Below are positions 2,741 to 49,508 of a DNA stretch of 64,000 bases, piece by piece. Both the position numbers and the translations under genes were made by a program. A model generated the notes under the pieces. It saw only the letters and a list, made by a program, of their open reading frames with translations, searched no databases and had not been told where the DNA came from. How positions within the stretch are numbered: position 1 is the stretch's first letter; each line of letters opens with the position of its first letter. This DNA comes from Ectocarpus siliculosus. Taxonomy: Eukaryota; Sar; Phaeophyceae; Ectocarpales; Ectocarpaceae. Where the stretch lies: the NCBI GenBank assembly GCA_000310025.1, contig FN649758.1, forward strand, positions 577,968-641,967, given 5' to 3'.

Positions 2741-5203
2741 ATGGTCAACTTCGCGTTCGGTCTCGCTTTGGCATCAATGCTCTCCCTCGCCAGCGGTGGC
2801 TCGACGAGCGGCAGCAGCATGAAGACGTACAAGGCGAGCTGCCATGGTCGTGTTGTGTGTGAGGAAGATAGCGGAGGCCAATCAGTGTACGTCGAGCTAC
2901 TCAGACGGTCGAGACATAGAATGTACAGCAGTTCCCCCAGTCCACAAATTGTTGAAGCTAGAAGCAACAGTGCCTTGAACAAACACTGTCGATGGCGGTG
3001 CTGGTATCTGTCCCCTCAACCCGTAGCTTGGTCACGATAGCGCCTCCCTCTCATGTCTGTACCCAGCCAACGTTTTCTGCCGCGCCCTCTCCAAACACAA
3101 TCCATGAACGAACGTCGTACAGGTTCGCGTGACGAACTTGACTTTCAAGCAGGACTTCTCGCCCCCCATCATCGTGGCGCATGAAAAGGTAGGTGCCCAG
3201 GTCCTGAACACCATGTACGTGTTCTTCGTGTTGCTCGAGGCAATCCCCGACCAGTCCGGTGATTGTGTGGAGAGAATATACGGGCTGGCTTGGAATGTTG
3301 TGCCCTCACCTCCTGCCAACGAACCATGAATGCTTCAGGCGGCAGCCCCCGCAACGGCGTGACACTTTTCGTCTCTCACACTCGTTCCCCGTCTTGCTCA
3401 CCAGGGTAGTCGTCCCCTGTTCTCCATGGGCGGGAAGGCGAGACCCGCAATCAAGCGGATGGCAGAAGAGGGCGTCAACGGGATGGTAAAGGTATGTCGC
3501 TGGTTGGTTTCACAAGGGATTCATCGCGTCACGGTAACAGCCAATTGCCGTGGCAGTCTAGATAAGTAGGTGTCCTCGCTCTCACATGTGTACCTACCTC
3601 TCATTCTGTCGAACTTTCAACGTCCAGTGTCCATCGAGGTTATTTGTCCCCGTGTTCTTGCTCGGACGGGACTCAATACGGAGCGCGGCATGGTGTTTTC
3701 ACCGGAGCTACTTGAACACTTCAACACCGCTGTTCCCTGTACGAAACGCAGAACCCATACACGTTCCACCGTTTCTACGCGCCTCTCAAAACGGCGGGCG
3801 ATGCACGCACAGGTGATCGCAACACGCGAGAGCGGCTTCTGTGGCTTTGCCGTGGCCGAGGGCCCCCTCTTGCCCGGGAAGACATGGAATGGCGAAATCA
3901 CGTTTGACACGAACAAATGCAAGGAGCCTGTCTACTCGGTGGTGGCCAAGCTCAGTGAGTTTCCGAAACACCGAAGACGACGCATGCACCCATCGTTATC
4001 GCCAAGTCGCAAATTTGAACTTGAATCCATGTGGACAACCTGTGGGCGTGTGAATGTTGATGCCCAGGCGCATTGCCGATGGTGATCTGAAGGGAGACAG
4101 TCCGGTGGCACATGGCCTTATTTTTTTACAGGACGTGTGAAACTCAGTGGCACGGCGCCGCTTCAGACTACGGCAATTTTCCTGTGATCTCACCATTCCA
4201 ATCGGCGTCAAATATCGCCGAACACCGCCTCATCCCGCCTCATGCGTCCCGTTTGCTACATCTGCTCGCACGCGCTCAATCGCTTTCAGCGATTTCACTT
4301 CAGTCACTGATTCCACATCGTTTCGTGAAACCCCCCCAAGCCTTCTCCTACGAGATGGGTGTACTCCTCTGTCGAATGAAGCTGCTCACAACCCGAAATT
4401 CTAATCGATTAAACTGCCTATGTTGACGCAGCCAACACCAACGACGCCTTCATGGGAATCGATGGATCCAAATTCCTCGACAAGTGCCCGTCCAAGCGCT
4501 TCCCCCCCGCCTTTGATGCCGGTAAGGGACAAGGGATTTTCACACAGCTGGCACGAATTCCGCGCGCACGCCATTCCGAAATATGAGGTCTACTTTTCTA
4601 ACGCGTACCTCATCGCCATGAAGCTGTCGCTCTTCACAAGCACCATACCCCATAGTCGACACCGACACGTGTGTTTCCAAAGCTATAATAGACGTCCGAA
4701 CAATCGAATATCATGTTCTGTATTCACATCACGATTGCCTACGAGAATACTTTTCACTTGCGCATCCTACTTGAACCCCCCCTGTCGTGACCTGCTTTAG
4801 GACATACCCCGATCTGGATCGAAAAACGAGAACGATTCTCTGGATGGCTCGCAACGATTCTTGGTGGAAACGATTCCCACCAATGGTATTTGCGATATGG
4901 ACGAAACGACCGCACGACAAACAACCGCGCACACGAGGGAAATGAAACAAAATACCGGAGAATCGATTCACGGGCCCTCCGTTCTTCCGTCCCCCTCGCA
5001 AAGGTACCGAGAAAAACAACGAGAAGTGTACCTGCATGCCGGGCCGGGCGTGTCCCGCAAGCCCCAAGACAAGGGAAAATCATGGCCGTGGTTCAGAGGG
5101 CTTCATCCATGTGCACCGAGGCATTGATGGCGTGGGAGACCTTTCGAAAGCAGACTACGGCTGGAATAACCCAGTTGCAGAGGTTGTGGTATCGAAGGCC
5201 TAA
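2741..5203 (+). CDS. Secreted Spondin_N-domain protein (copy A, intact)
   Basis: Six exons join in frame to 225 aa: 2741-2833, 3123-3188, 3405-3491, 3813-3954, 4432-4521 and 5004-5203. Exon 1 encodes a signal peptide (MVNFAFGLALASMLSLASGG). The rest follows the Spondin_N pattern: VRVTNLTFKQDFSPPIIVAH, then PLFSMGGKARPAIKRMAEEG, then GPLLPG, then TNTNDAFMGIDG, and EGFIHVHRGIDGVGDL near the C-terminus. Spondin_N domains are usually extracellular matrix or adhesion modules, so secretion to the wall or matrix is likely (inference). Intron phases are 0,0,0,1,1. Intron 1 would use a GC donor (AAG|GCGAGC) where the decayed paralogue has GT. An in-frame ATG lies upstream at 2600, but the start at 2741 is preferred because it opens directly on the signal peptide. 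The domain call is confident; the exact N-terminus is less so. Confidence 0.85.
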
Positions 5204-6215
5204 GGCGAAGAAAGCAGTGGAAACGGGCTTCAACTACTCTACAACGCCGTTTAGTCGACGGATGGGCGAGGACTACATATATATACATATATACATGTAC
5301 AGCAATACGATGGTGCTTTCCTTGTTTCTCTGGCTGCATTTTTTCCGCAGGGCAAAAGTGCTTTCGTTGATTAGGAGGTAACGGTCGTACCGAAGACCAT
5401 TCGCGCGCATGCACATGTACCAGAGTTGCTCGTTGAGCCGTGCGTGGAGTTGCAAAAGGAGTTTAGTTGTGTTTGTGGCCATGGTATGAACCCAGATTTT
5501 CTTCACTCGACGACGTGGCGCTGGCTTTGTGTAGACGGTGCGACTGTAGGGCCGTATTTCGAGAGTTGTAGGTGGGGCGTTGAGGACGAACTTCTGTGGT
5601 CAACGAACGGTTCGATGTTTAGAAGCAGCCGTACGGGTTGTAATCACAGAGTGAAGTGGATTCCTTGAAATGAAGGACCTGTCACCGTAGCTCTTTGCAG
5701 GCACTCTCGATCAGCATCGTCGGCCGGAACCCGAACTGCGTATTCCCGCCGAAAGCTACCAAGTTGGTCGATATGATGTTGATCTCTACTCCGCACGAGA
5801 CATTGTGTCCGCCCTTTCGAGAATGAACGTGGGGACCGAATCTATGGTCACTACTGTAGTACAGCAGCACAGCTGTGCGCATGCTTTTGGGTGCTTGTTC
5901 AACCTCACCCCAAATTCTTACGTCTGAGGCCAGGACCGCAGCTGGTCTGTAGCCCCGCAAGACGTACAGAGCCAGATACAGCGGTAAGGTCTAAATCACG
6001 GAAGGGTAGATCAACATGATGGCCGTGTCGGAGCATTGTCAAGTCGACAGCTCAACAACTGCTTGTCCCCACCCCGGCCGGCAGAACGTCAAACCCGACA
6101 TTGGCATTTCTCGGACTTACCATATCCAAACCACCATTCTGCCCAACAACGGACGGGCTGCTCTTTCCTCCCTAGTCCGTCAGTGGAACGGAAAACGACC
6201 CCCGATCTCCCTCAC
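5204..6215. repeat. 3' flank of spondin copy A, duplicated
   Basis: Noncoding sequence that aligns with 9886-10700 downstream of copy B and with 1-560 at the window edge. Matching blocks include TGGAAACGGGCT at 5219 and 9900 and the CACCGTAGCTCTTTGCA string near 5685, 10365 and 145. A short TATA-rich tract at 5275-5300 (ATATATACATATATACATG) is specific to copy A. No gene seen. Confidence 0.6.
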
Positions 6216-6540
6216 TATTTGACAAATGTGTACAGCTTCGATGGAAGCATAAATGAGCTTTCATGGAAGTTGGATCTACTTCCTTCCATGGAAGCTGACC
6301 GCTTCGATGGAAGCTACACGTTTTGTACCTCTTCCACGCAAAGGCAAGCCGGCACTTCCATGGAAGCGATATTAACTTCCACGGAACTCCCATGGGAATC
6401 ACATGGAGGAAGTGGGATTGCTTCCACGGAAGTCGAACCATAGGCTTCCATGAAGGGGTGACCACTTCCTTCCATGGAAGCAGTGAATTCTATGGAAGTC
6501 AATTTCGACTTCCATGGAATCTTATTTCATTTGTCAAATA
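6216..6540. mobile_element. MITE with 13-bp TIRs and an array of CTTCCATGGAAG palindromes
   Basis: The element is bounded by a perfect 13-bp terminal inverted repeat: TATTTGACAAATG at 6216-6228 and CATTTGTCAAATA at 6528-6540. The outermost TA at each end could be a TA target-site duplication, as in Tc1/mariner-type MITEs. The interior holds about thirteen variants of the 12-bp palindrome CTTCCATGGAAG, for example at 6355, 6421 and 6469. No transposase frame is present, so it would be non-autonomous. It lies between spondin copies A and B and is absent from the corresponding place near copy C. Confidence 0.75.
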
Positions 6541-7471
6541 ATTAGGTAGGTTACCCAGAAAACGTCACAAGTCGCTCGTCACCCTCTCCGAAATAATGTC
6601 GAGTCATTGGACCCGATCCCGCGCCAAGTATTCCAAAGCTTTTGGCTAATCCGGGCACAACTTTGGCTCCAGTTGCTGGAGACAGTAACATAACGAGCAC
6701 TCTCGTGGTTCCTAGCTAGTGCGGGCAACGATTTTGAACTCCGGCTTTTCACTTTCTGCGTACTTTCCATGTGCCACATGTACCAAGAGCATGGTGCGGA
6801 TACCTCCGTCGCTACGATGCTACGGCAGCAAACGGATGCCTTCCTTCGGGGCCAAAGCTATGATCCAACCCGATCCACTCTTGCACCTTGATATTACCCA
6901 CCCGTTGCAAATGATAGAGGCTCGCAACTACATCTCAGCCCCAAGAATACGGCCATCCGACACTCCCACACGACTGCAATAGAGTCTAGACGGCACGCGG
7001 CCGGGAGGTGGACTCAAGTGAACCATCATGGCAACGACGATGATTCGCCGAGTGGTACGGCACCGATGAAGAGTCCGTCCAAATCGCTTCGAACGTACCA
7101 AGTGGGCACATGGTCAGATACAGCGAGAGGTTGGTGCGATTGACACAAAACCTGTCCCAATCATGCTCTCTCAATGGAGTGAGTGTAGAGGGTAGTCGTT
7201 CCCAAGCTGTCACATATTCCCCCAGGTGATACTGAAATGAAAACTCGTCCACACCAAGGCACTAAGACACGCCGACTTACACATTCTTCGGTTGGATCTT
7301 GGGTTCTCTCGCGCGACAGGCCGAAAGGGCGAATGGCTTTGAATAGACTACATAGACTGTATTGAAGCAGACACGAAGCTGTGCATGATCTCATTCATCC
7401 CCCCCATTTTCAGTCACCTGTCTTTGCCTTGCGTTCTTCGCCGCCTACAACCCCACCCAGTCGAAACGAAT
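6541..7471. other. Intergenic/upstream region of spondin copy B
   Basis: Sequence related to 650-1000 and 1700-2700, i.e. the duplicated space in front of a spondin copy. No gene is supported and no clear core promoter is visible. Confidence 0.45.
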
Positions 7472-9885
7472 ACGGTGAAGTTCGCGTGTTGTTTCGGTCT
7501 AGTGTCAATGATCTCTTCCGCCAAGGGTTGGCTCTACCAAAACAACAACGACATTCAAGGTGAGCTGAATTGTTGTGTGAGAGGAGGACGGAGGAGACCT
7601 ATCAGCAGTGGCAACGGCGAACTACTGGGCGGGCGGAAACATCGTTGCCTGGCCCCAGTCTCCAGATTATGGCGGCTATAGTGGCACCGAATGCACCATT
7701 CGATGCCCTGAATAAGCGTTATCGACAACGGTGCGGGCGGCTGTCACCGTAGCCTGTAGCGTGTCATGTTAGCACCCGTCTCTCGGTCACATCTGTACCA
7801 AACCAACGCCCCCGCCCTCAAAAACAATACCAGGCAGAGTGCAAAAACAAAGTGCTCCTGTGTTTTCACAGCAACTCCATCACCAGGCGCAAGCAAACTC
7901 GAGCAGTACTCGCGGCATTCCGCTCCGACTCAAACAGCACGGCACGCACAGGCATCGACAATACACAAGTAAGTCGGGATGAAAACGAACCTAGGGGCCG
8001 GACAAGCGCGCGGTGGGCTTGATACCCCACCCCCAAAAGCCGCCCAGACACCTTCCAGCACACACGAACCACATGCACCATGATCGAAACTACCACGGCC
8101 TGCAGACCGTTTCGACCAGCCTCGTACATTCAAGGGGGACGCAACAACAGAAACCATATTTGGTGAGCTCGGGGAGAACATATCCACATCCATACACCAC
8201 GTTTTTCATCGGGTGTGTGGCCAAACCCAACGTGTTCAGCATGGGAAAGCACAGCTTGTCGGTCACGATGGAAGACCGGGGTCACGATGGAAGACCGGGG
8301 AGTACCGTAACCTCCACCGGGACTAGATACGAAGCTTATCGCGCTTGAGATGAGAGGGAACGAGGAGCAAAACTGGAATGAGGCCGTTGTCGTCGAGCCA
8401 TTGGAATGATCTTTGGTCAAAATTCGAGTTGAGACCCGCCGTCTCAACGGGGTTGGTCGAGATCTACGCCGCCGAAGTTGGGCACTGAGCTGCTCATCGC
8501 GAAGCCCGTCCACTTGTCCGGCACGGTCATGAAGTACCGGTCCATCGCCTGCGAACAGCGCGTGGAGGCACGCATCGCCCAACGTGAGGAAGGGCGACCG
8601 TGATTTCCGTCAACTATGAGAACAAACAAACTCATGCTACTTGGTTACCCCGGTGGTCTAGTGGCATCCTCGAAAACCGCTAGTCGCATCAGGTCATGAG
8701 TGCGAAATTCCCCATGGGATGAAAACAATACAAAACTTGCGGGTGAAAGCGAAATAGCTCTGTAAAGGTTCTTGTGAGTACCAAAACTTGACGTTAGCAC
8801 CGTTGAGGAGGGAAAGGGACGGCCGGACCCTTCTCGTGATAAAAATGAATAGAAGGTAAGGCCCCGGTGTTTACCCCCTCCTGTGTGACCCTGGATGGCT
8901 GTAGATGTTCGAAAAATTTTCACTGGAAAGCGAAGAACTCTACATTCACAGAAAGGTGAAGTACACGTCTCACCACGAAAAGGGGGGACTGTCGCCATAA
9001 TCAATAGGACGAAAACACACCAACAAAACAGCTTCGGTATCTTTGACCTTAATAATAGAGTGGGTTTCCAGGAGGCAGCCATAGTAAATAGATGTTGCAT
9101 ACCACAGAGATGTTGTAGGCAGCGGGCGGGATACCCCTGACCAATCAGGTGCACTGAAATAGTCAACCCGGAGGCAATCAAACCTACCGCCGCGTACGGT
9201 AACATCGTTTCGGGTTCGCGTGACGAACTTGAGTTTCAAGCAGGACTTCTCGGCCGCGGTCATCGTGGCGCATGAGAAGGTAGGTGCCCAGGTCCTGAAC
9301 ACCATGTCCTGTTATCTACCCCACCAGTGGGGTAACGGCGCATGTTCCCCACCATCCGTAGCACCACCAATACTGTGCCGTTTCGGCCTTACGATGGGTC
9401 CAATGATGGCCTTGCAACGCCGCAAAACATTCGTTGAAGTCGTGTGCTGATTGGGGTCTTGTAGAGCGACCTACAGGTGGTAGGGTGTTTATGCGTTAAC
9501 CGCCCCACCGATGGGGTGGTTGAGAAATTACACCCCACCGGTGGGGTGTTTAGGCGTGCCGTTGATATGGATGAAACGACCGCACGACGCACAAACGCAC
9601 ACACGAGGAAATGCCGAAACAATATATGATTGAAAAATGAACAATAGATTTACAGGCCCTCCGTTTTGCCTGCCCCCTCGCAAAGGTACCGAGAAAAACA
9701 ACGAGAAGTGTAGCTGCATGCCGGGACGGGCGTGGCCCGCAAGTCCCAAGACAAGGGAAAATCATGGCCGTGGTTCAGAGGGCTTCATCCACGTGCACCG
9801 AGGCATCAAAGGCGTGGGAGACCTTTCGCAAGCAGACTATGACTGGAAGAACCCAGTTGCAGAGGTTGCGGTCTCCAAGGCCTAA
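7472..9885 (+). pseudogene. Decayed spondin gene (copy B)
   Basis: Counterparts of exons 1, 2 and 6 of copy A are present; exons 3, 4 and 5 are missing. The exon 1 match (7472-7559) has ACG where copy A has ATG, and its donor CAAG|GTGAGC shifts the phase by one relative to copy A. The exon 2 match (9214-9279) encodes VRVTNLSFKQDFSAAVIVAH, but the acceptor AG has become GG. The exon 6 match (9686-9885) is full length and open, encoding EGFIHVHRGIKGVGDL and a TAA stop. The first intron is about 1.36 kb longer than in copy A because of inserted sequence. No single reading frame links the surviving exons, so this is most simply a pseudogene. A rearranged transcript starting at the in-frame ATG at 7385 cannot be excluded. 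Confidence 0.8.
8645..8715 (+). repeat. Possible tRNA-derived SINE head
   Basis: Within the sequence inserted in intron 1 of spondin copy B. GGTGGTCTAGTGG at about 8652-8664 resembles a tRNA A box. GAGTGCGAAATTCCC at 8699-8713 resembles a degenerate B box (GGTTCGANTCC), at tRNA-like spacing. The flanking stems do not give me a convincing cloverleaf, so this is not called as a functional tRNA gene. Confidence 0.35.
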
Positions 9886-10848
9886 GGCGAAGAATGCAGT
9901 GGAAACGGGCTCCAGCTACTCTTCAACGCCGTTTAGTTGACGAATGGGTGTGGACTTCATGTGTACGACGGTGGTTTCCACGATTCTGCCTGCCATTTCC
10001 TGGTGGGCAAAAATGCTGTCGTTGATTTGGAGAAAACGGTATTTCCCAAGGGTAATGCCATTTACGAATGCAGATGCACCACAGTTGCTCGTTGAGCCGT
10101 GCGTGGAGTTGCAAGGAGTTGGGTTGTTATTGTGGCCATGGTTTCCAGATATTGATGAAACTCGACGATGTGGGGTTCGCTTTGTGTACATGGCGCGGCT
10201 GCATGTCCGTTTTTCGAGAGTTTTCAAGTGGGGCGTTGCGCACGAACTTCTGTGGTCAATGGGCAGTTCGTCGTTTCGAAGCATGCCGTATGAGTTGTAG
10301 AACACACGCCGCACAGATGAAGGGAGCTCCTTGAAATGAAGGCAACCGTACAGGGGCTTGTCACCGTAGCTCTTTGCACGCGCTCTCGATCAGCATCGTC
10401 AGGCGGAACCAGAACTGCGTATTCCCGAGAAAGCTACCTAGTGGTCGATATGATGTTGATCTCTACTCTGCGCGCCCTTTCGAGAATGAAGGTGGGGACC
10501 AACTCTATGGTCACTACAAGTAGTACAGCATCACGGCCGTGCGCATGCACATTGGGTACAACTGGGAGGACACCGACCACGTTGAGAGAGTATACTGGCA
10601 GAGCATATTCAGGCTCACAAATTTTCATGGTTGAGGCAAGGATGGCAGCATTGGCGGGAGTCCCGCAAGATGTACAGAGCGAGATATGTCACGGAAGCTT
10701 AGGAAAGAAAAAGGGCAGTGTCGGAGCTTCATCACGTGGACAGCTCAAACATCACCGCCAAGCGGAAAACAATCCCGATAAGGAATTTTGCTCAAGCCCT
10801 TTCAGTATCCAATCAGTGTGCTGCCCAACCGGCGATGTGTTCTCGACA
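9886..10848. repeat. 3' flank of spondin copy B
   Basis: Aligns with 5204-6000 and 1-560. No gene seen on the plus strand. The last ~100 bases run into the 3' end of the minus-strand TPR gene. Confidence 0.55.
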
Positions 10849-14983: not shown

Positions 14984-16500
14984 AGGGTAGCAACCTGGAA
15001 TATGCGGGCTTTGGCTGTAAACGGGGCCAATGGAAACGGGCGAGCCTACAGCGTTCTACACGAGGCAGCGAGACAAGACGTATCGGTGGTAGGAAGGTAG
15101 GAGACACGGAGGGCAGGTCGAACGTTTTTGCAGCAGGGGGTATCCGGGTGTTCTGCTGTGGCAAGGAGACTGGTGGAGTCCATGGTGTGGGGATAGCCGT
15201 CAAAGAGTCACTGTGCACGACATCCACGTTCACTTCGGAGTTTATCGATGAACGACTTATGGCCATTAGGTTTATCTTGGCAGGCCACCGTGGAACGGTC
15301 AACTTCGTAGCCGCGTATGCTCCAACCGAACCTCCAACCACCGACAGCAAGCGTGTGTTCTGGGGGAAACTTGACATTCTCGTGCGGAGGATCCCTTCCA
15401 AAGAATGTGTGGATGTCCTGATGGACGCCAATGCGCGGACGGGAGATAGGTTGGACGAAGGGGACGGAAGGGTAAAAGGAATGTACGGGCGTGAGGAGCT
15501 CAACGACAATGGCAAGCTACTGTTGAATTTCGCAACGGAAAACAGGCTAGCTCTCACGAACACGTTCTTTGAGACACGCAAAGGCGGAACATGGCACACA
15601 TACAACGGTGTGTCGGGAACCGATTGCAAGCGCCTTGACTACATCCTGACAAGGCAGGCACATCACGGCCGAGTGTCTAACGTGGTTGTCATCCCCCAGC
15701 CGGTTCGCCCAGTCAAAACAGACTCAGACCACAATATGGTAGTAGCCACCGTCAACCTTGGTGGCAGGCTTGCCCACAACCGTGCAGTCCGGACTAAACC
15801 GAAACAGAAGCAATTCAACGGACGGGAATTGCAGTTCGAAGCAGCACGGTGTGCGGTGACTAATCGGTTCCTCCTCAACCTCGACACACGACTGGACGAG
15901 CGAACAACCGCCGCCGCGGAATTGGCGACCGACTTTACCAATGCTCTCCTCGAAGCAGCGCGGACGACCCTAGGGGAGGAACCGCGGAGACACCGCAAGC
16001 AGGAGTGGTGTGAGACCCCAGAGACGAGAGCAGCACTGGAAAAGGCCCTTACCAAACGGCGGGAAGCGCGCCGGGCGATGAGGGGCAACTGGAACTCAGC
16101 AACGAGGAGGGTTCTCAAGGAAGCGTGTAAGGGAGTGGCCACAGCAGTCGAAACGGGCATTTATGCCCACCTGGACGGATATGTGACTGAACTCGAAGCA
16201 ATCTACAAAGAACGCGACATGAGAGGACTGTACCAACACCTCAAGAGATCAGTGGGCCTCAGCGGGAGACGAGCGGGGCGACAGCAGTTCGTCGCGGATG
16301 AGAACGGCGTGTTGCTCGGGAACAGGGACGGCATCCTCCAGCGGTGGGCGGGATTCTTCAGCCCCCTACTCAACACCAAATCCCCTACCCTGAACCCAGA
16401 CATCATCAAACGAGTGACGCAGTGGCCAGCGACACGTGATACTCAACAGTTGGAGAGATGCCAGACCTCGAGGAGGTGGAACGGGCAACGAAAGGCCTGA
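14984..16500 (+). pseudogene. LINE apurinic-type endonuclease domain, frameshifted
   Basis: Opens with VATWNMRALAV in one frame, hits TAG at 15098, and continues in another frame from about 15130. That second frame carries the exonuclease-endonuclease-phosphatase motifs: AYAPTEPPTTDS, the acidic VLMDANARTGDR, GTDCKRLDYILT and the catalytic TDSDHNMVVA at about 15720. In a working element it would nick target DNA to prime reverse transcription. The frame then leads into a linker and is lost at about 16455, just before the RT. Confidence 0.8.
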
Positions 16501-17795
16501 AGAACTGGAAGGCACCCGGCCATAACTCCCTCCCTGCCGAATTGCTCAAGATCGATGACGACGAACCCTTCATCCTGGGGCACCTCCATACCATCCTCGT
16601 ACAGGTGTGGAACGGAGGAGATATTCCGCAAGAGTGGAAGGATGCAACCGACAAGGTGCTGTACAAGAAGGGTGACCGGTCCAATTGTTACAGGGGGATT
16701 TCGCTACTATCTCACGTAGGCAAGGTCCCCATCAAGATCATCACCAACCGTCTAAGCGCCTTCTGCGAAGCCAACAACATCCTCCCGGAGTCACAGTGCG
16801 GATTTTGACCCGGGCGATCCCCACCGTGGACATGTTGTTCGTCGTGCGCTGCCTCCAGGAGCTGAGGCGGAGAAAGAAAATACCGCTCTACATGTGCTTC
16901 GTCGACTTGAAGAAGGCGTATGATTCGGTGGACCGAGAGATGCTATGGAAAGTGCTGTCCAGGGCCGGGATTGTCGCGAAACTGATCAAAGTCATCGGCC
17001 AATTCCACGATGGAATGCGGGCCCGGGTGCGCATGGACGACGGAGAACTATCGGACTGGTTCTTCGTCACACAGGGCGTGCGACAAGGATGTGTGCTGTC
17101 CCCACTGCTGTTCAACATCTTCTTCCCCGCCGTCGTCATCCGATTCAACGAGGATGATGTTATTCTGCGGAGCCTGGTGTGCGGAGGGGAAGACGGAAGC
17201 GGGGGGGGGGGAGGAGACACCCCTTGACCGAGTACGGAGGGCAGTATGGGGGATGCTGTATGCCGATGATGCCGGCGTCGTATCGAGGTCTGCAGAAGGA
17301 CTGGCGAGAATGATGGCCATCATCGTTGACGTGTTCGGGAAGTTCAGGCTAACGGTGTCGGAGAAGAAGACGGAGACGCTCCACAGCCCCCCCCCGCTTC
17401 CACCGCTGACCATCGAAGCCGCGGGACAGAAATACGCCCAGACGACCGAGTTCCGGTACCTCGGTGGCCTCGTCAACGAACATGGCGACCTCACCCGGGA
17501 GATCAACTACAGGAGCAGAGGAGCGTGGGCGTGCCTCAGGCGATATGGCCTGGAGCTCTTCGACAGACCGAAAGCGCCATTCCGACTCAAGGTCCGGCTG
17601 CTCCAGGCGGAGGCGATGGAGGCACTGCTGTACGGCTGCATGACATGGTCACCACTCGGCGGCCACTACCAGACGCTGCGGTCGACACACCACCGACTGC
17701 CACTTCGAGCTATCGGGTACAAGCGCAAGAAAGACACCCTACCGGCAGCTCTCTTACGCCTAGACGCTGAAGAGGGTCGAATGCCAGAGCGTTGA
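16458..17795 (+). pseudogene. LINE reverse transcriptase domain, frameshifted
   Basis: RT motifs are readable in three successive frames. First are [16 protein letters not shown] and [18 protein letters not shown] (16458-16808), ending at LPESQCGF followed by TGA. Then FVDLKKAYDSVDREMLWKVL and GVRQGCVLSPLLFNIFF (16812-17227). Then the catalytic YADD at 17259-17270, followed by TEFRYLGGLVNEHGDL, ALLYGCMTW and LRAIGYKRKK. The residues of the active site are intact; the lesions are indels and stops between motifs. Element copies elsewhere in the genome would be needed to judge age. Confidence 0.85.
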
Positions 17796-18302: not shown

Positions 18303-18510
18303 CCCCCCCCCCCCGGTGTTTGCCATCGGGGTTGGGTTTTCGTCGCTTGGCAACGACGTTGTAAAACAAGCCGCCCCCCCCGGTGTTTGCCATCGGGGTT
18401 TGGGTTTTCGTCGCTTGGCAACGACGTTGTAAAACAAGCCGCCCCCCCCGGTGTTTGCCATCGGGGTTTGGGTTTTCGTCGCTTGGCAACGACGTTGTAA
18501 AACAAGCCAA
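18303..18510 (+). repeat. 68-bp tandem repeat, three copies, at the LINE 3' end
   Basis: Three near-identical units with GGTGTTTGCC starting at 18315, 18382 and 18450 (periods 67 and 68). Each starts with a C run (12, 8 and 8 bases) and ends GACGTTGTAAAACAAGCC. The array is bracketed by AGCCAATTC on both sides. Short 3' tandem repeats are typical of RTE elements. Confidence 0.85.
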
Positions 18511-33284: not shown

Positions 33285-35971
33285 GCCTGGGGTTTACGTC
33301 TGATGAATTATTTTCGGGCGCGCTTCTCCTGAGGAGTCGCCGCCCCCATCGGAGCGGTTACGCGGTATCACTGGGCCTTCGGCGGTGTCGAAATTGGAGG
33401 TGGCAGTGGCTGTGGAAACAGTCGCAACTTCACGTGTATTTGGCGGACGCTGTCCTTGTGTGGCTTGAGATATGCGTCGGTTCGTGTGGTTTGTCCGAGG
33501 ACAATAATCGTAGCTCGGATATCGTTGGAGGAACCCGACAAGGGTTTATTGGCAGTTTGTAGTTCTCCATGATTATATCGATTTGCTATCTTCGTACAAC
33601 AACGCGATGTTCATGTGTTGCGTTGATTTCCACGTTTTGCTCTCGTTCGTGGGACGCTACTTGATTCAAAGTTTGATTTGCGGTTTCTCTTTATCTGGTC
33701 GTTATTAGTACCTTGCCTTGGAAGATGGGGAACTGTGTTAGGATTGGAGCTCGTAGCAGTTTTTTCTTAATCATGGGCTCCGGAGAGCGAATGTATTTTG
33801 TTACCCGGCTTGGTCGTGTGAGAATTGGCCACCCACCCCCTTTCGAGACTGCGCGTCCTTCCTACTGCTCGTGTCGTGTTGTAGTGACGCCGACAATGTG
33901 CGGCCTCACGTCATCGGTAAAAGGAGGAGCCGGGAGGGGGCGGCTTCACTATTCTTTTGCGGCTACCCGGGGTTGTACGCTTCAGAGAAAGGCGATAACT
34001 TTAATGTGTTGTTTTCTTGTTCGGTGTGTGGTTCGACCCCCGTTGCCCTTTTCCTTTATGAGGGTATATCCTGTGATGTGCTGGAGGTGTTTGTGGGGCA
34101 AACGTTAGTTGCGCGAAACAAGTGCTCGAGAAGCAATGGGTAAACCATGTGTCTTGTGACATCCCTTCCAGCTTTGAGAGTCAGCGGCCGGAGAATTTGT
34201 ATGTTTTTCATCTAGTTCTGTGTGCCGAAAGTAAGCCACGCGGACGGTGTCTAACGGATTTTCCGTGGTTCGCATCATACCCTCCAGAACCGGATCCCGG
34301 TACTGTTTACTCCGTACTTTTCTTTTTTTTTTCTTAGTATGACACAACGAATCCATCTCTATCTGAGAAAAGAGTCTAAGGTAGATTAGCAATGAATCCA
34401 TAGCGTCAGAGGAAGGCTACCTGTATTTCCACGATTTCCCGAGCAGCACACAGCGACATCTCCCCTGTGGGTAACAGGCTCAACAAGACAGTTTGGTAGC
34501 CGTCTTTTTCTGGTTTCGTGCTAGGGCATCCGCGGTTGTAGATATTCATCTGGGTAATTTTTTTAGTTCTTTCGGAGCATGCCGAGGCTTAGACTGTGAC
34601 GTGATTACTGGTCTCTTCTGATAGGGTTTCGCACAATAGCATAGGTCTGGAACATTGCAGGTAAAATCGAAGGAGGAGCGGGCTGCAAGGTGTATGCATT
34701 GTGTGCTGTCTGAACGAGTACATCGACGCGCAGGAGAGGGAAAATTTAGATCTTGTATCCACAACATGCATGGCGTCTAGGCTTACACACGAGAACCTTG
34801 TAGCGCAACGGGTGTGTTCTACTGTTGTAGTCGGCGTCGACCACGCTTACCGGCTGAACAATGAAAAGGACGTTTGTCGCATCGGCGGGGGGGGTTATAC
34901 ACTCATTCTTCTAGGCATCGCGTCGACCGCGCGCTAGCCGGGTGACCAAGGAACATAAGTCTGGTATTTGCCGGGAAAAAATGCGCCAACATTCCTTACT
35001 TAGTCCACGGTCCCCTCCACTCCACAGGAAGGCGGAGGAGGAGATTGGACGTTTGGGCGTCTGTGCGCGCGTTTCTTTGATAATTGGCATCGAGCGCGGC
35101 GCTAACCGGCCGCCCGAAAAAAGGCATGAGCATGTACAGCGGGACAAAAAGCCGCCAAGGCGCTAAATTATGTAGTCATCCATATACAAGAGGGGGGGCG
35201 CCGAGGAGGTTGGGCCGTGCGTGAACGCGCATTATTCGTGGAATCACGCTTTCGAGGGGCACTCGCCCTCATCGGGACATTGCCTTCTTTGTCCGATTAT
35301 GGATGTTACACCTGTGCCATTGAAACACAACCAGCACTTCATGTTTGCCTCGGATCTTCACACCAACCAACTTAGCCGCACAGTATTCTTACTCTCGTGC
35401 ATACCTGGCAGAGCGCAAGAGCGCCAAGCGGACAAGTACAACGAGACAACACCCGGCGCCGAGAACCTGATCATGCTGGACACCGTGCCCGCGTGGTGCG
35501 TAACCGCTTCTTCGGTATTCGCAAAGAATCGTTGCACAGAAACACAAGCAAAACGGGCTGAACCCTCTTCAAGTTTGTTGACATCTCTGCCAAGTCTCTT
35601 GCGCCCATAGTGGCCTGCCTGCCTGCAAGAGGGGTGAAACAACAGTCGAGGATAGCTACCTATAAACAGATTGTGCATTGCTTCCCTGAGCTCCGGCTAT
35701 ACATGTCGCTCACTGTGATGACAGACAATAATACAAGGTTCGACAACGGCACCGACGGGCGAAGAGGGTGCTGATATTCTGTTCTCAGACGGCGCACTCT
35801 GAGCTCAAAACTGCGGCTGACTGCTAGCGTTTGGGAAGCAACAAAATGTACATGCAAAGCGGACCGCAACGCCGCCACACCCAGGTTCCGAAAAAGGTGG
35901 TTACACTTGTTCCGAGTCTTGCCAAGTGACCTTCGACAGGAAATATCCCGTCTCAACGAATAGGAGTAGCA
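33285..35971. other. Convergent intergenic region
   Basis: Between the stop codons of the LysM gene (+) and the UPF0301 gene (-). Several 70-130 codon frames occur (for example 33713-34108 and 35221-35610) without domain resemblance or supporting splice phases. I do not call a gene here. Confidence 0.4.
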
Positions 35972-38900
35972 TCAAAGGTCGTCGTACGTGTCTCTCGCGA
36001 GCAGGCCGTATTTGGGGCCCATAAGGGTCATGACCTCTCTCCACATCGGAACCGGCAGCGATAGGCAGTGCTTCAATATCACCTGTAGGAAAGCATGGGC
36101 AGAGTGCAGCGCGGGTTGGGGCGCTTCTTCGAGTTCGAAATAACTTCCTGGAAGGAGGACCAAACATCCCTCTCGTCAGATCAAGAAAAAAAAATAGAAA
36201 AAAAATTGCAAGGGGGGGATCAATCACCACACGCCCTTGACGCCAATTGTTCTTGCAACTCACGTTGGTCGACGTCGCTACGGGCATCCACACGCCTCTT
36301 TGAATCTCGTCCTCTAGCTGCCCCGGCGCCCAGCCGCACAGGTGCAGCATGAACTTGAAGTCGTCTACCTTGGCTCTTCCAGATGCCACCATGCGGTCAG
36401 CCTCGTCAACTGCACCGCCAATGTAGACCTGCGGGGGGATAGCCGGTCCGCAGAGAGAGGGGCAGCGAACATCACGGTGGGAGGGGGAGGGGGAGGGGGG
36501 GGGGGAGGGGTGAGACGATTCGAAAGGGTGTGCGTAACGGAAAAATTCATGTGCTCTTGTTTTCTGGAAGACACTGATCTGTAGGAAAGGCAGATGGGAG
36601 ACAACGAAAAAGTGTGAGTTGCTGGAAAAAAAAATGACACGGGATTGAAACAAAAAACACAAACGACACGAAAGATAATGGGATGATATCGCCAATCGTT
36701 CGGGATGGACACACACCGTCGTTGCAAGGCAATCGATCGAGCTCGGAAAGTCCACGCCGCATGCGAACGCGAATTTTTGCGAATACAGTACTCCTATCAT
36801 TCGATACTCACGCCCGGGATGATTTCCATGCTGTCGGTGAGCTTCTCCGGCCCGAATGGGTGCAAAATCTGAACGTTTCCTTCCCCTGAAGAGAAAAAAC
36901 GTACGGTCGTGACGGTCCACAGCCCGACATCGTACAGCCGGCGTTAGAAACAAAGGGACTTCGAAAGATCATGGTTGGTAACGCGGGTGCACACGGAGTT
37001 CGCGGGGGAGTCAAACGTCGGCTTCTCGTTGCCGAGCGGGCTCCTAGCCGGGAAGCTGGTCCTACGCAAGCACCACAGCTGCCGCGCCGAGGGCCCGTGG
37101 GTAACAGCCATTGAGGCTCAAGCGGAGGCCAGCCAACAAGCACGGACACATAAATGTGGACAGATGGTTTCGAACTGTACGAAACGGACCATACGTTGGG
37201 GCATTCGAACCCAACGACAAACTTTATAGAAGCTGATATCAAACCAAGTCTAATTGTTTGATTTCGGCTTCTATAGAACACGAGTCCCCTCCGATGGGGA
37301 TAGACACGTCATGACGTCACTGACCGACGTCGCCCCCTAGGTAAAGGGGCGTTTTTTGGAACTGCCGCAGCGCGTTGCCCTCGACCAAGTCTCCCAGCTG
37401 CACGGACGTTGGTCTGTTGAGGATGAACCCCGCCGACCCGGCCTCGTCGTAGCTCGCCAAGAAAATCACAGCCTGATCAGACACACAATATGTCAAAATA
37501 TGTCGAAGGAGACAACACACGCTGAGCGTGCGTTCCGTATCTTCGTCAAAGCTGCTGCCGTTGGTTGGCGGCAATGGCCGGCAAGAGTGTACTACGAACA
37601 ACCTCGGAGTTGTCCGTCCGCTACTCGGCCAACGGCTGTCTGGTACCGCACGTTAAAACGGCCGACTAAAGATGGCTTTACCTCGTTGAAGTACGTTTGA
37701 GCCATGCTGAACTGGGTGCTCTTGGCAACGATCAGGCAGCCCTTTTCGGGGGCGCTCAGCTCGTGCGCCCAGGCGTCCTGCCCCGCGAGCTGCCCAACGT
37801 TAACGTTTCTTCGGAGCTGCTCTTTCCACTTCTCGTCAGACCCGGCCCTCAGCTTCGCCCGAAACAGTCGAAAGTCTTTGTTGTCTCCTGTCGGCAAGAA
37901 AACGGTATCTCCCTCCTTGTCCTCTTCCTCACCTGACGCCAAACGTGCGGTGAAACAAACAGCCAGTAGAGAAAGAATGATAAATCATCGGAGGTGTGTT
38001 TAACTGCCGTCGACGCTGCTGCTGCTGCTGCTGCTGCTGCTGCGTATCACACATAGCGGGGAATGACTCCTGCGTACAATACCATGGCACGTCGTGTTGC
38101 TCCTGAGCGCCAGTCGTATCGTCAGCTTTGCTCATGCTCCTTAGTTTCATCTTTCGATACCGAACAAGGTGGTTGGTCCACGTGGTGCAAGCCAACATGC
38201 ATACATCAATACTTGCCTAGCAACCAAGAAGACGACAAGGGAGGGGCGTGATGTGGAGATCCCCTTCAAAAAGGGTGCAACCTTCCCCGCGCCTGTCTGT
38301 CGAGGACGACGCCCTCAACTCAGAGGGGCTACACTTATCCGCCACGTATCTGCGTCACAACGGACATTGCTTGCGACCACACCAGATTCAAAATGTGCAC
38401 GCACGCAAGTAGTATTGCAAAATCAAAACTCTTCACCCTGCCTGTCCTCCAAATCGCTACAGCGCCTCCATTGGGTTGGACCCGCGACAGATATTGACCT
38501 CCTTATGCACACACCCATCGACGGGGGCAATATCTACAGCAAAAGTGCAGCATTATTGTAGCATACTCCTTGCCTCGGTTGTCCCGGCAACAGGTTAGAG
38601 AAGCAATAAAATTGCGTATGTATCGCGGTGCTGGAAACAACAGAGGTTGATTTCCTTCTTAGCGCTGCGACGAACGCACCTCCCCACCTTCTGCCTCTTT
38701 CTTCTTTACTGGTCCCTTGTCCTCCTCTGCTGCTGCACCCTGCCCACTTTGTACACCGTCGTCTATCGCCCCGTCAGCAGCAGAGGCTTCAACAACAGCA
38801 GCACCCGCATCGGCCCCATCGGCAGCATTGCTGCCATCCTTCCGGGCGGCTTCTTCCTCGGTCCCATTGCTGCCATCTCCCGCTTCAGCGTCGTTCTCGC

Positions 38901-40620: not shown

Positions 40621-41406
40621 GAATGAGGAGACTTCCGCCATGTCCGTCATTTCGAAGCGGTAGTGGAGTTCTTTCGAGTTTTTAAGAACAACTTTTGGGT
40701 GTTGGCGAGCGTAGAATATATAGGTTTGTCCTTTTTCTTTTTTCCGACCCAATGCAGCCCGTATTGAATTTCTACATGTATGTACAGCCGCAGCAGCGTC
40801 CCGCTACTATGCACGGCGTATTAGTTTAGACACGCATGTCGGTGGAGGCTCAGCTTCTTTTTTCGTCGCCACCGAAGACGTCGAGCACAGGAAATTTGTA
40901 GGTGCATTGATTGCATGCATATAGTCTATAGCACGGCTCAACACAAGAAGAGTCTAAACCCGAACAATCTCTCTTTCCACTTTTTGTTCGTGAAGGACTT
41001 CAGCCTTTTACATTTGTGCATTGATGTGCAACTCCTCGACGAGTTTGGTCGGCGTTGCCTGTCTGAAGCTTTCCTTGTTTTTCTTACGGGAAGCCGCCAT
41101 TGCTTCCTACGGCGGTGTGACACTCTCGAGCACGAGACACTACTGCAAGAGCAAAGTATCTTTGGAATGAAGACGTGCCGACCGCAATGAAGACCTTGAA
41201 ACTATCGTGCTGACGATGACGATGCCAAAGAACTACTGAACTGTGTAGATGCGAAGAAAGTCTACGATAACAAGATTTACGTATGGAAAAAAAAAAAGGA
41301 AGCAAACGTGCCAAAGAAAGAAATCGCATGAAAACTCCCCTCGAGCAGTTCTCTCCGATGGGCCGACAGGGCCTAACAGGCTTCCCACCGGATGGGCTGC
41401 AGCAGC
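40621..41406. other. Intergenic, nothing recognised
   Basis: AT-richer sequence upstream of the copia remnant. No gene or repeat that I can support. Confidence 0.3.
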
Positions 41407-41940
41407 ACCGGCGGCGAGAGTGGTGACCCCCGGCGGCAGGGTTCTCCCCGCGACGCCGGCCGGGGGGAGGGCGGGGTGCAGGCACTGGCGGTTAGAGCGG
41501 TACCATCGGTAGCAACACCGGCGGCCAGAGTGGTGGCCCTTGGCAGCAGAGATTTTCCCGCGGCGGTGGCGGTGGCGGCGGCGGCGGCGGTGGCGGGGGA
41601 GACGGCTGGGGCGCAGGCACTCATGGCGGGATCGGCAGCATCGGCAGCAGCATCGGCGGCGAGAGGGGGGACCGCCGGCAGTCATGTTTTCCCCGCGATG
41701 CCGGCGGGGGGGGCGGCCGGAGTGCAGGCACTCGCGGCTAGAGCGGTACCATCGGTAGTAGCACCGGCGGCGAGAGTGGCAACGCCTGGCGGCAGAGTTT
41801 TCCCCGCGGCGGCAGCGGCGGGGGGGCAGACGGCCGGGGCGCCGGCACTTGCGGCGGGAGCGGCAGCATCGGCAGCACCACCGGCGGCAAGAGGGGGGAC
41901 CACCAGCAATCATGTTTACCCGCAGCGGCGGCCGGCCGGG
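41407..41940. repeat. GC-rich minisatellite, five units of ~110-135 bp
   Basis: Units begin CACCGGCGGC(G/C)AGAG or CATCGGCGGCGAGAG at about 41407, 41517, 41652, 41761 and 41879. Two unit types alternate (one ending in GAGCGGTACCATCGGTAGNA, one in GATCGGCAGCATCGGCAGCA type sequence), so the higher-order period is about 245 bp. All three plus frames and minus frames are largely open because the repeat lacks stops. The long Ala/Gly- or Arg/Cys-rich frames over it are artefacts of composition. Confidence 0.8.
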
Positions 41941-44573
41941 ACTTTGTGAAGGATGAGCAACCGTTACTTTTTTTCATGCAGTTCACGGCACCATTCTAAT
42001 GATGCGGAGAATGAAACTAAAATAACGGGCAACTTCACCGCGCAATCTCGACCAATTTGACGAACTCGAGACTTAACACGTGCCCGCACGCACGTGTCCG
42101 CACGCGACGGTGGGAAAAAATCAGTCCGGGACCATCGCAGGCACCACCATTAACACAAATCATGGGAATCTCCGGCAGTACGCACCCGAACAGACAACAC
42201 GCTCGTTCTTCGTGAGATGCACACCTACTGTAGTGCAGCGTTTAGATCGAATAGAGACGCTTGCTTGCGGTTGGAGTTTGAAGGGCATGTCAAGGCCCGA
42301 CGCTTATAACGTAAGACCCCATGGTTACGAAGGAGTCTTGCAGGCAACGAGTGTAGTCCTCAGCTCAATACCTCGCCCCGACCGACTACCTATGCATGAG
42401 AGACATGATGAACCACGCCATGCTCCCGTAATGCGCTCATGTTTCTCCCTGGCGTACTCCGACCACACACCAGCACCGTAATGAAGCGAGTGGGGATGGA
42501 CTGCGCCGCTCACGTAGGTTCGAATGTACCAGAGTTCACCAAGAACGTAACTGTCTAGAGGTGGAGAGCAATGCTTGAGAGAGCAACAGCAGCCGCAGCG
42601 GTGCTCGGCCGCTGACAAAAAAATGCTTGAGTCGTGAAACAGGTTACGCCGGACCGGAGATGGCCCGCGGTAGAGCAACACGGAACGACAGCAGAAAATT
42701 GCGACAGATGCACATGTTTGAATGTCCATCGGATTTTAAACCGCTGGTGACAGGCCACTTATTTGCCCGCAATTTTCAAGGATCAACGTGCCGCACGAAG
42801 CAATGCTGAAACTTTCCAATCGCTGCTTCCCGTAGGTGTCCACCCTCGGAGTTGGCAGTATTCTCGGCAGACGGGTCAGCAGTGCCACGAGGGAACACCG
42901 ACCGAACAGGCCCAGAAAGAGGTATGTCGCAAGAGCACGCAAACAACCATTACTACTGCCGTAAGCAGCGGAAACACCCAACTCCGTGTCTCAATCCTCT
43001 AACTTGTCGTGAGTGTTGGTTACTTTTACTGTAGAATACGACAAGATGAAAACCGTGCCGGTCTCTGCTCAATGTCGGCACTGGTCCACCTGACGCCAGC
43101 TGCTGTCTTTCCGCGGTCACAACCTAGCTAAATCGAGAGAGACAGAGAGAGTAAAACAAAAACAAGAGAGCCACAAAAAAACTAATGATACGCAGGCGAG
43201 AGCACACAAGGCAGAAAGAAGCCCTCGAAACTGACCGTCCTGTCGCCCACAAAAAACTGTCACTCGACTACAAGAAACACGAGCAGGAAAAACAAAATTA
43301 ACCATGCCGTGTCGACCTTTTACGCACCCTGCACCACTATGAGGAACAACTACCCATGCACAATAAATACAAATACAAGCTGCCGTGTACTTGGCCATTC
43401 GCCTGGCCAATGCCGACTACAGCTAAGTGTCACCCCCCTAATTCGGGGGGGGGAAATAAAATCTCGTCTTAAGAAGAAAAAAAAAATAACACTTCTCGTG
43501 TTCAGAAACCGACACATCGACACATACATACATCTAGCAGGCATAATAGCAGGCACAAAATCCAAGGGATACCCACGCTACGTCTCAGATAAAGAAGGTG
43601 TGGGGGCTGCCTGTGCCCGCACTCCATATCACAACACTCACCATCCGCGAAGCATACAAAAAATACAAGCTAGTGTATATTCATTTCGGGACCAGTAACC
43701 AGCCCTAGCGCGGGAACTCCAACCGAAATACGAGAATATACGTCAATGTAAAAACGATGAAGTTCCGTTGTGGGAGCGACATCGTGTCTATTTTAGTGAG
43801 GGAGAGTGTTCCACAGGCGGAAAATAAAACGCGCATCTAGACTGCTGCGGCACATGCTCCTCGGCCTGCTCGTGCTGTAGCAAATGGCTTGGTTCCAACA
43901 GAGAGTCCCGTGGCAAAAAATAAACCACACAGAGGGGACAAAACAAAAAAACGGGAAGAGGCAAATTGTACTCACACAGCGGGTGGTATCTTTTGATACA
44001 TGTCTCAGACAACAAATATTGAGGCTAATGCTAAGCACGCGAGCATTCTTCTCGCCCTTCCAAAGGGTACAATGGAGAGGGTACAATACCTCCTCGTCTC
44101 TCGCGGGCGGGATACCTTGCCCTGCCGAGCGAAGTGTCATGCAGCTTTCGCACGCCAAGCAACGCCGCATGTCACAACCGCAAGCATTGCCCACGTGACT
44201 ACTACAAGCACTGCCTCCACGCAAAATACGTACAGTACACGTCACATGAAGACACATACAAAACATGGGGGTGCGAAGCATGGCACGTGGTTGAGCAATA
44301 CAGGCTGAGCAATACACCAACGGGTTTCGCGAAGCAGCACCCGCCGCTTTGAAAAGCAACCCTACCACATAGTCATATGCCTAGATACAATCAGGTTTCC
44401 CACCCATCCTCGAATGGATTCGGCGGGGGGGGGTGTTGTAGCCACGGCCCTTAAAGCTGAACAATCCTTGTTGAAATTTTTCCGCACGTGCGTGGCACCT
44501 TACAAACACCCCGCAGCCATACCAGTGCCGTCCGTGGTGCCATCTCCACCCCTCCGCGGTGAACAATTCACGC
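41941..44573. other. Intergenic, no supported gene
   Basis: Several frames of 70-190 codons on both strands, none with a domain, signal peptide or consistent splice phase. The 191-codon minus frame 43793-44368 is Cys-rich and unlike its neighbours in composition; I regard it as chance. Confidence 0.35.
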
Positions 44574-47500
44574 CTACATCCGCGACACGAGCCTCCTTCT
44601 GCCGAGAAACAGAACACGGTCAGGCGGCGTCGATTGGTTCCGTCGTCAGTTGAGCGGGTAACGTTTGGCGGAGTGGCGCGCTGAACAGATGTGTCGTTTC
44701 AAGTGGAAAAATGGAACGCTCTCGAGGTTCGTCCGACAGGCGGTTGGTTGTCGGTGTGGCTGCCGTAAGTAGCCTTTTCGTATCGGACGAGCAACAAGAC
44801 CAGGGTTCAGCACAATCAGCCGACAACACACGTTCGAGTGCGGCATGAGGACCTTCAACCCCACCCCACACCCCCTGCTTCAACTACTTCCCGTTACACC
44901 GGAAGCGTCCAACGTGTCCCTTCGAACAACCTTCAGAGAGGCAACACCAAAACCTCGACTGCGCGCAATACACCCTTCCTCGATCACAACGACCACACGG
45001 CACCAAGACTTCGGTCGCACACACCTGACGAGGTCGCGTCGTGCCCCCCTGCTTCTTCCTTCTCACTTGCCCTGGTAGTTCATCACGAACCGCCTCCTCA
45101 GCAAGCGCCCTTCCTCCTCCTCCCCTTCTCCTTCCCCGCCGTCACCGCCTACCAACGCCGGGAAGATGACGACGCACAACTCGCCAGTGACTTCACCGTC
45201 GACAGGATCAAAGTGTCGGTTCGGGTCGAAACGCTCCACATCTCCGAGGTCGTCGGTGAACGAGTACGACCGCAGCAGGCAGCCGACGGCGATATTGAGG
45301 TACTCCTCGACGATCTTCTCGAGGCCGCTCGCCGCGAGGGCGGATTGGACGGCGTCCGCGTTCTTGGCCTCCGGGTTCCACTCTTCCGACTCGATCATGC
45401 TGGCGTCGGTCGTCACAGCAGTTTAAGGGGCCGGGATGGGGTGACGTGAGGCATGGACGAGGAAGAAAGCAAGCAGTTGTGGCGTGTATTGACGTGTATG
45501 CGATTCCAAACCGTGGTTCGACCATTGCTGAATGTGGAACTAGAATTTGCGAGCATAGCGTGGAACGTATCGAGGAATATAAAAAAAAATAATATGTGTC
45601 GAATTTCGAGGAGAGTGCGCGCTAGGGTAGTACTGGTCCTCCTGTAATGCCTCAACAACGAAAGAAACAGAAAACGACAACGTCGCAACCATGTCTTCCT
45701 CTTTTTCTCAAGGGAACGTACAGAGTAGTGCAGGAGACCCTGTTGGCATGGGATAGTGTGTTGCTCGGCGGCAAGGACGGTGGTTGACCAAACAGGACGA
45801 GAACAAAATTAAAAAAGAACGAGAAGCTAGTATTGGCGCGGGTGGTTCCTTTGGATGTTTCTTTCGGGCGCGTGCGTTTGGTTAACAGGTGTTGGACCGC
45901 GAACAAAACAAACTACAATACAGCTGTACTTCTAAAATAAATGCCGTGATGAAATGGCAAGGAGAGATGGTGGCGACCGCTTTTGCTTCGGCCCACGTGC
46001 TGCTCTTCCGGATGGATGATTGCTCACGTCACGCGAAGGGAAAACATGCGGGGAGAAAACGAGTGCGAGATACAGCAGTTGCGCATACAGAACGGCGAAT
46101 CTCGTCGACGTTGGGTGTCGCGCACCGTTAATGGATGATATCTGTGCGTGCACAAGGGAGGAGGGGGGATGGGGATCTTTTACGCCACGGGTGTAATTGC
46201 AGCCGTAAACCTGTGTACCACAGAGTAAGCAACACCCAGGCTGCTGTGATCTGATGTAATGTCCGACGGGTGCGAAGAATGTCGTTCCGACGGCCGTGGA
46301 GTTCATGCGGTCTAAATAAACATAAATCTAATGGCGGAGGACACCGCAGTGGCAGCGGTGTCTTGTGTCTAGCGAACGCGCACATGTCTCAAGACGTTCA
46401 GCATAAAGATGCCGACAGGGCACGTGGCACAAAAAAACAGCCTTGAAACACCCGGTGTTTCGCGCGCGGGCAGCGCGTACCAAAGATAGGTACGCATTTT
46501 TGGTACTAATAAGCAGTGTCGCATGACTCAATGACGACAGACGGACAGACGAGAGAGCGAACGATAAATTTAGGATGAGTACATGCGCCGCAAGTGATAG
46601 CCACATTCCAGTAGTTTGTGTCTACACCATGCAGATGTCTGCCTTACCTGTGAGCGAGCGACATCATGACCGTCTTGGTGGCCGCCATTAACTTATCCCC
46701 CTGCAGAGGAAACACGGTGCGGTAGTGGCGGTTCAAATGGTGATGCAGGGTCACGGACGACTCCTTCGCACCCTCATTGCCGCCGACCGCCACTTCCTCC
46801 TCGAAGATGCTCACGAGCTCCTGCCGCCTCTCGTCGATGAGCTCCGTGCTCAGGAAAAAAAGCTTGTGCAGCAGCCATGGCAGAACCAAAGCTTGCCGCA
46901 GCCCCGGGCTGCAGGCGGCCTGCATGCCCTTGATCCACCTGCTGACGGTGCCCGTCATGGCGCTCTGGACAGAGTGGAACAGATCGGGGAGATCGGGTTC
47001 TGGATCGTCGTCGATCGGTCCAGCACCATCAACGATAGCAGACGCGCTTGCCAAGACAGGACGCTCGACGCTGCTACCGGTGCTGTGGCTGCCGTCGGTA
47101 CTGCCCATGCTGCTCGCGTTGTCCTCGACGGAGGCAGCACCGGGGTTGTCGACACTCGTGCTGCTGCCGCTTGATGGATCGCTGCACCGATCTGCCGCGG
47201 CCACCAGAGCAGACTTGCACCGCCCTAATTCCGTCTCCGCGTCACGCCGTCTATTCTTCTCGCTGGTTAGGAGAGAGGCCTGCTTGGTGAGGGCCGCGGA
47301 CAGCCGCTCCACCTCGCGGCAGACTTCCGTCAGGGAGGCCCTCGCTTCCTCGAGCTCCGCCTGAAGGGCGCTGTTCGCTTGCAGCACTTCCTCCTGCTCT
47401 TGGTAGAGCGCGGCGATCTCCTCCTTGTCCAGCACGCTCTCCTGTTCCAGCACCCTGTTGAGGGAACGAGCCTCCAAGAGCTCCAGCGACGCCTGGCGGT

Positions 47501-49471: not shown

Positions 49472-49508
49472 ACCAGTTCGCGGCCGCTAGGCCGTGCTTT
49501 GGCCGTGG

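Follow-up and report, generated by a model that had tools for sequence, protein, structure and literature searches.

In the soybean CACTA element Tgmt*, the right border carries 24 repeats in 732 bp, which can form 12 palindromes and adjoin an imperfect 13-bp terminal inverted repeat (TIR); in the part of the source consulted, these repeats are taken as sites for a TNPA-like protein, their recognition still to be determined there (PMC2613891). For Ectocarpus, the consulted part of a second source gives 11,912 copies for Mariner-Tc1, the majority being described as non-autonomous, and 6,366 for EnSpm (PMC12477816).

The locus considered here lies at 6216-6540 of a 64,000-base stretch of contig FN649758.1 from the brown alga Ectocarpus siliculosus (the window, whose numbering is used throughout), which has a G+C content of 53.7% and contains long stretches without long open reading frames. 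It carries perfect TIRs around a row of short palindromes, and we see about an even chance that it is a non-autonomous TIR DNA transposon (MITE), with an interior of predicted protein-binding palindromes. This reading builds on the anatomy of the locus and on one rough paralogous gap, not on copies; mobility, an autonomous partner, protein binding and the order of events are what we infer.

Ends of the element

A preliminary description of this DNA had placed perfect 13-bp TIRs around the interval, and the two ends are found exactly so, with a possible continuation of the inverted repeat outwards:

6216-6228, + strand: left TIR, TATTTGACAAATG, with a TA at the outer edge that is a possible target-site TA
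6528-6540, - strand: right TIR, perfect inverted copy (exact complement) of the left TIR
6207-6215, + strand: possible outward continuation of the inverted repeat on the left, 6 of its 9 bases pairing with 6541-6549
6541-6549, - strand: possible outward continuation of the inverted repeat on the right side

Shuffling the two 40-bp end regions 3000 times never produced a 13-bp inverted repeat, the longest reaching 10. Counted from 6207 and 6549, and thus including the outward bases, 19 of 22 positions pair; because six of the nine bases outside the TIR still do so, the end of the element is uncertain by up to 9 bp, and the true end may lie up to that distance beyond the 13-bp TIR. The TIR is itself nearly palindromic (ATTTG-N-CAAAT), so that each copy, with 2 mismatches, also matches the opposite strand at its own position, and the two TIRs sit 7 bp outside the first and the last palindrome unit, respectively.

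The same description had proposed to look for a TA duplication at empty sites. TA is present on both sides of the element, but it is automatic for an inverted repeat that begins with TA, and AT likewise. Since it is unavoidable, the TA duplication proves little. In a scan of words of 2-9 bp, with the ends shifted by up to 6 bp inwards and up to 12 bp outwards of the TIR border, the only exact duplications are this TA and an AT one base further in, the remainder being words of 3-4 bp with one mismatch.

With a length of 325 bp, which is too short for a transposase gene, and perfect 13-bp TIRs, the element has the build of a MITE. TA at both ends would fit the Tc1/mariner superfamily, though with a TA that is automatic; to our knowledge, Tc1/mariner MITEs do not usually contain arrays of internal sites. 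The termini of CACTA/EnSpm elements, CACTA...TAGTG, are not found as a pair, as the left end reads CACTA at 6213-6217 and the right end TAATT at 6539-6543; nor is there a 3-bp target-site duplication of the CACTA/EnSpm kind, the flanks being CCT and AGG when the ends are set at CAC. For PIF/Harbinger, which duplicates TNA (ANT in Ectocarpus), the ends scanned yield no exact 3-bp duplication, only the pairs TCA/TTA and ACT/AAT with one mismatch each at N, where later mutation is possible. An 8-bp duplication of the hAT type does not occur, even with one mismatch allowed, over the range of end positions scanned above.

The palindrome array

The interior had been described as about thirteen variants of one 12-bp palindrome, CTTCCATGGAAG, and this count holds: 3 copies are perfect, 8 lie within one mismatch, 11 within two and 13 within three. 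In sequence order, the units (palindromic, and thus given without strand) are:

6236-6247: unit 1, CTTCGATGGAAG, 1 mismatch; starts 20 bp from the left end
6258-6269: unit 2, CTTTCATGGAAG; starts 42 bp from the left end
6283-6294: unit 3, perfect, within an 18-bp stretch, ACTTCCTTCCATGGAAGC, that recurs at 6464-6481
6302-6313: unit 4, CTTCGATGGAAG
6331-6342: unit 5, degenerate, CTTCCACGCAAA, 3 mismatches
6355-6366: unit 6, perfect
6376-6387: unit 7, CTTCCACGGAAC
6387-6398: weak overlapping unit, CTCCCATGGGAA, 3 mismatches, 5 of 6 pairs self-complementary; outside the 12
6421-6432: unit 8, CTTCCACGGAAG
6445-6456: unit 9, CTTCCATGAAGG
6469-6480: unit 10, perfect, with a CTTC extension
6487-6498: unit 11, ATTCTATGGAAG; ends 42 bp from the right end
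6509-6520: unit 12, CTTCCATGGAAT; ends 20 bp from the right end

That the element is made almost entirely of such palindromes was an overstatement, as the 12 units and both TIRs together cover 170 of its 325 bases (about 52%). The whole window holds 12 matches to CTTCCATGGAAG at up to two mismatches, where 2.67 are expected, and all but one of these fall within the element, the exception being CTGCCATGGCAG; at up to three mismatches the window total rises to 40. When non-overlapping copies of any 12-mer with at least five of six self-complementary pairs are counted, the element has 11, whereas none of its 1000 dinucleotide shuffles has more than 2. Perfect 10-bp palindromes occur 60 times in the window, and among them only TTCCATGGAA has four or more copies (at up to one mismatch) within about 350 bp.

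Over the 12 units, 130 of 144 letters agree with the consensus, and the mean pairwise identity is 0.82 for the units, 0.23 for the 7 bases to their left and 0.27 for the 7 bases to their right, the expectation from composition being 0.25. Because the units are 82% alike while the adjoining bases are at chance, it is the 12-bp word, and no longer unit, that has been kept. The same comparison bears on whether the array is a decayed minisatellite or tandem array, left with palindromic cores by chance or by selection. In favour of such an origin, successive units are mostly spaced by 18-29 bp, if unevenly, and once by 45 where the weak unit overlaps, and two units share 18 identical bases; against it stand the chance-level identity of the 7 bases on either side and the output of Tandem Repeats Finder, which reports nothing at the element. 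Mutational decay of a tandem repeat should also have left its mark on the spacers, and none is seen. Since the spacers are unalike and no tandem array is reported, we consider this origin very improbable.

Short conserved units standing in unrelated spacers are what makes these palindromes putative binding sites. The preliminary description had offered a dense array of binding sites as one possible function of the interior, and the contrast between conserved units and unconserved spacers favours it: judged from this pattern, the palindromes are probably docking sites for a DNA-binding protein. The arrangement of the units adds little to this. The two outermost units on each side are equidistant from the ends (20 and 42 bp), and any two unit gaps are equal with a frequency of 0.089; this mirror arrangement is only suggestive, because mirror symmetry, when tested across the 13 unit positions together, falls short of significance (P 0.17). 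The units show weak helical phasing, with R no higher than 0.52 at any period tried between 9.5 and 12.0.

Composition and folding

The element is poorer in G+C (45.2%) than its 500-bp flanks (54.6% and 52.8%). It is also predicted to fold strongly, with z-scores of -8.4 for DNA (+ strand) and of -10.4 and -10.6 for RNA of the two strands, and in each of these three tests none of 100 shuffles folds as well. Folding into many small hairpins, as had been suggested, is thus possible; however, strong folding follows from self-complementary copies, and because it is expected of any array of self-complementary words, it is not counted here as separate evidence.

These same energies, far below those of the shuffles, would be the main argument for a fold-back or small-RNA-producing element, the interior of which is kept for the self-folding of transcripts or single strands. 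Beyond the point that any row of self-complementary words folds in this way, the predicted pairing is multibranched and lacks a single long stem, an Rfam scan gives no match at gathering scores, and full self-complementarity (all six pairs) is found in only 3 of the units; such an element therefore seems to us hardly probable.

The paralogous site and searches for further copies

A duplicated region is present in the window in three diverged copies (1-927, 3122-6815 and 9213-10748), and the element lies in the one at 3122-6815. Block by block, the copies are 61-94% identical, and an exon-like block of 95 bp reaches 94% between the copies beginning at 3122 and 9213. A spondin-like identity of the duplicated gene is unsupported, since of four short pieces compared with Pfam, three gave no match and one a sub-threshold match to DUF7155. 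The flanks of the element align with the first of the three copies (copy A, 428-927), which spans the site:

5930-6119, + strand: left flank, homologous to 428-608 of copy A
6555-6815, + strand: right flank, homologous to 660-927 of copy A

Copy A is without about 376 bp that cover the element. When excisions are simulated and scored against it, the exact 325-bp cut at 6216 ranks 53rd of 281 positions, and the best interval tested runs from 6156 to 6531; the ten best of those tested start at 6156-6168 and resume at 6524-6556. Excised sequences score about 300-331, as compared with a maximum of 131.5 for 40 random 500-bp segments of the window. The right edge of the gap is thus near the right end of the element, and the left edge about 50 bp outside it. 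This suits an insertion followed by some other change; the edges of the gap differ from those of the element, and copy A is not a clean empty site. The preliminary description had counted on an empty site in its copy C; if that is the third copy, the empty site is not confirmed, as detectable homology ends at 10748, before it, and beyond this point the third copy (9.2-10.75 kb) offers one weak 30-bp match (E 0.56).

Further copies were sought in viral contigs, where four exact patterns give no match to the element, and in phages, again with no match. In open-licence literature, searching for the sequences of the motif and the TIR in the printed text leads to no title on such an element, and a search of the same literature for MITEs with palindromes, with subterminal repeats or in brown algae gives no case by title or start of abstract, which is a weak absence; the consulted part of PMC6004678 holds nothing on palindromes.

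It is with these results that the locus may be weighed as a local binding-site cluster without any transposon (an enhancer, a silencer or a replication-origin-like cluster, compare viral origin repeats), in which the two outer ATTTGNCAAAT palindromes would be merely another type of site. The TIR is so nearly palindromic that an inverted repeat and the same site occurring twice are hard to distinguish, conserved sites in unconserved spacers mark regulatory clusters as well, and viral contigs and phages held no second copy; on the other hand, the two borders carry end sites that agree in all 13 bp, a frame that a regulatory cluster does not need, and paralogue A is without the whole interval. 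A non-mobile cluster of sites thus ranks second after the MITE reading, and we regard it as unlikely. What speaks for the MITE is that the element is short, AT-richer than its flanks and bounded by perfect TIRs, with a paralogue that is without the interval; of the features that would decide for a MITE, a second copy did not turn up in viral contigs or phages, the gap in copy A is not a clean empty site, and the TA duplication is automatic.

The same palindrome in bacteria

Two neighbouring units, when searched for in bacterial and archaeal genomes, occur in at least 120 stretches; those listed are mostly an actinobacterial operator-like pair, together with arrays in Segatella and some coding or chance matches, and none of those listed was seen to be algal. 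A coding-looking repeat in a Clostridia MAG (L002, 3923-4160) also fits the scan pattern.

Pairs of the form CTTCCAYGGAAG-N9-CTTCCAYGGAAG, with exactly 9 bases between the units, make up at least 67 matches, mostly actinobacterial (for example L098 5918-5971, L059 6896-6928, L037 1141-1173 and L061 4490-4522); a non-actinobacterial site among the matches listed is L062, in a Desulforapulum MAG. Position 3 of the N9 core is A and position 7 is T, each in 66 of 67 of the matches listed, and the core between the paired palindromes of these matches is TAnnnTA-like; to judge by its letters, it resembles a -10 box between two operators, and the whole looks like a conserved double operator. Gene context was viewed for 40 of the at least 67 paired sites, using longest-frame ORFs, many of which are not real genes: by eye, MarR-like and EamA-like starts flank the site of L061 divergently, and the other sites viewed have at most one recognisable side. 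Four proteins adjoining paired sites were scanned, three of which are MarR and one EamA. No paper with the palindrome word was found for a MarR/EamA operator in open-licence literature. These paired sites resemble the array in the window in having the same 12-bp palindrome, there also with CACG in place of CATG, repeated at 21 bp; they differ in being a bacterial operator-like pair around a -10-like word, with no TIRs and no visible homology.

In Segatella maculosa, the palindrome has 30 exact copies, of which 28 are in six arrays and 2 are isolated. The arrays (L125-L130) occupy six places on four contigs, in both orientations and with partly shared flanks; each holds 4-7 CTTCCATGGAAG units (at up to two mismatches) in up to about 260 bp, and 31 of 32 gaps measure 41-42 bp. 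Compared with L125, the best alignments of the other five are 91-94% alike in four cases and 83% in the fifth (L126). They look like a repeat family of the BIME/REP kind; no paper on a Segatella/Prevotella repeat was found in open-licence literature. The window element shares with them the multiple CTTCCATGGAAG copies, and is set apart by the regular spacing of the Segatella units, their bacterial origin and the flanks common to their copies.

Dispersed arrays of the same word, with 2 of 30 exact copies isolated, are what one would cite in favour of serial insertion, by which a tiny self-spreading palindrome (compare mitochondrial GC clusters and bacterial REP) entered a MITE or some other spacer; the spacers of the element, unrelated and uneven at 6-33 bp, would agree with this. 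A self-spreading word should scatter, however, and only one of the 12 window matches is outside the element; the Segatella arrays, for their part, are regularly spaced and look unrelated. We accordingly give serial insertion little credence. As far as visible, the bacterial occurrences are unrelated to the window element, the likeness presumably being due to convergence. They show the palindrome in use as a repeated site elsewhere too, the actinobacterial pair presumably being bound by winged-helix dimers.

Other features of the window

LINE-like remains lie at 15148-17795, where an endonuclease-like ORF (Pfam Exo_endo_phos, just below the cut-off) is followed by a reverse transcriptase (RVT_1); a scan of viral contigs for relatives of the LINE protein gave 8 pattern matches and no relatives. 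At 18307-18508, a 68-bp unit that starts with a run of C is tandemly repeated in three near-perfect copies; a GC-rich, possibly coding repeat array with copies 110-135 bp apart lies at 41401-41943, and the telomere-like unit GGGTTA forms an internal tract of 5.7 copies at 49507-49540. On the - strand, an ORF at 35904-36953 has an AlgH-like (DUF179) match above the Pfam cut-off, and ARAGORN places a tRNA-Pro (cgg) at 46868-46944, inside a long ORF (46644-47726) that runs in the same direction; either the tRNA or the ORF may be spurious.

A proposed mechanism and comparison with known systems

If the element is a MITE, a transposase acting in trans would cut its TIRs and join them, and about half of the rest would be a run of CTTCCATGGAAG sites for a homodimeric DNA-binding protein. 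This protein could be the transposase or an accessory protein of the autonomous partner, with a role like that of TNPA at the subterminal repeats of CACTA elements; bound along the array, several dimers might then gather both ends into one complex, and a CACTA-like element reduced to its two ends would be left with the order TIR, sites, TIR. A more far-reaching proposal, to which we assign a rather low probability, somewhat below that of the non-mobile cluster, is a mobile element with little but an operator-like palindrome array between its TIRs, each insertion of which plants a multi-dimer platform beside a host gene; here the putative sites would either serve the transposase or have been captured from a host or viral regulator.

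If mobile, the locus would represent a MITE pared down to its ends and binding sites, and it would become testable whether the number of internal sites sets the success of a MITE and whether regulatory platforms spread in this way. Should it prove to be one local array, the locus would be a candidate cluster of regulatory or origin-like nature in a lineage that has been little studied.

Among described MITEs, those of the Mariner-Tc1 superfamily in Ectocarpus (such as the 217-bp TcMar-N1_Ec32) are similarly short, non-coding elements with TIRs; unlike the case here, no internal palindrome array is described for them in the consulted part of the source, on which this comparison is based (PMC12477816). 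Coral CMITEs are alike in being MITEs with an unusual conserved interior, thought to aid transposition, and differ in their size of about 100 bp, their TTAA duplication and their relation to piggyBac, no palindrome array being described in the part of the source consulted (PMC2872659). The subterminal repeats of CACTA/EnSpm elements (the TNPA sites of En/Spm and the repeats of Tgmt*), as far as the consulted parts of their descriptions go, likewise place many copies of a short palindrome-forming motif, taken as the target of a protein that the element encodes, beside short TIRs; unlike these, the element does not end in TAGTG on the right and has no 3-bp duplication that was found, and its motif is a perfect, even 12-bp palindrome running from end to end. 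By analogy, the CACTA subterminal repeats are the nearest described arrangement found.
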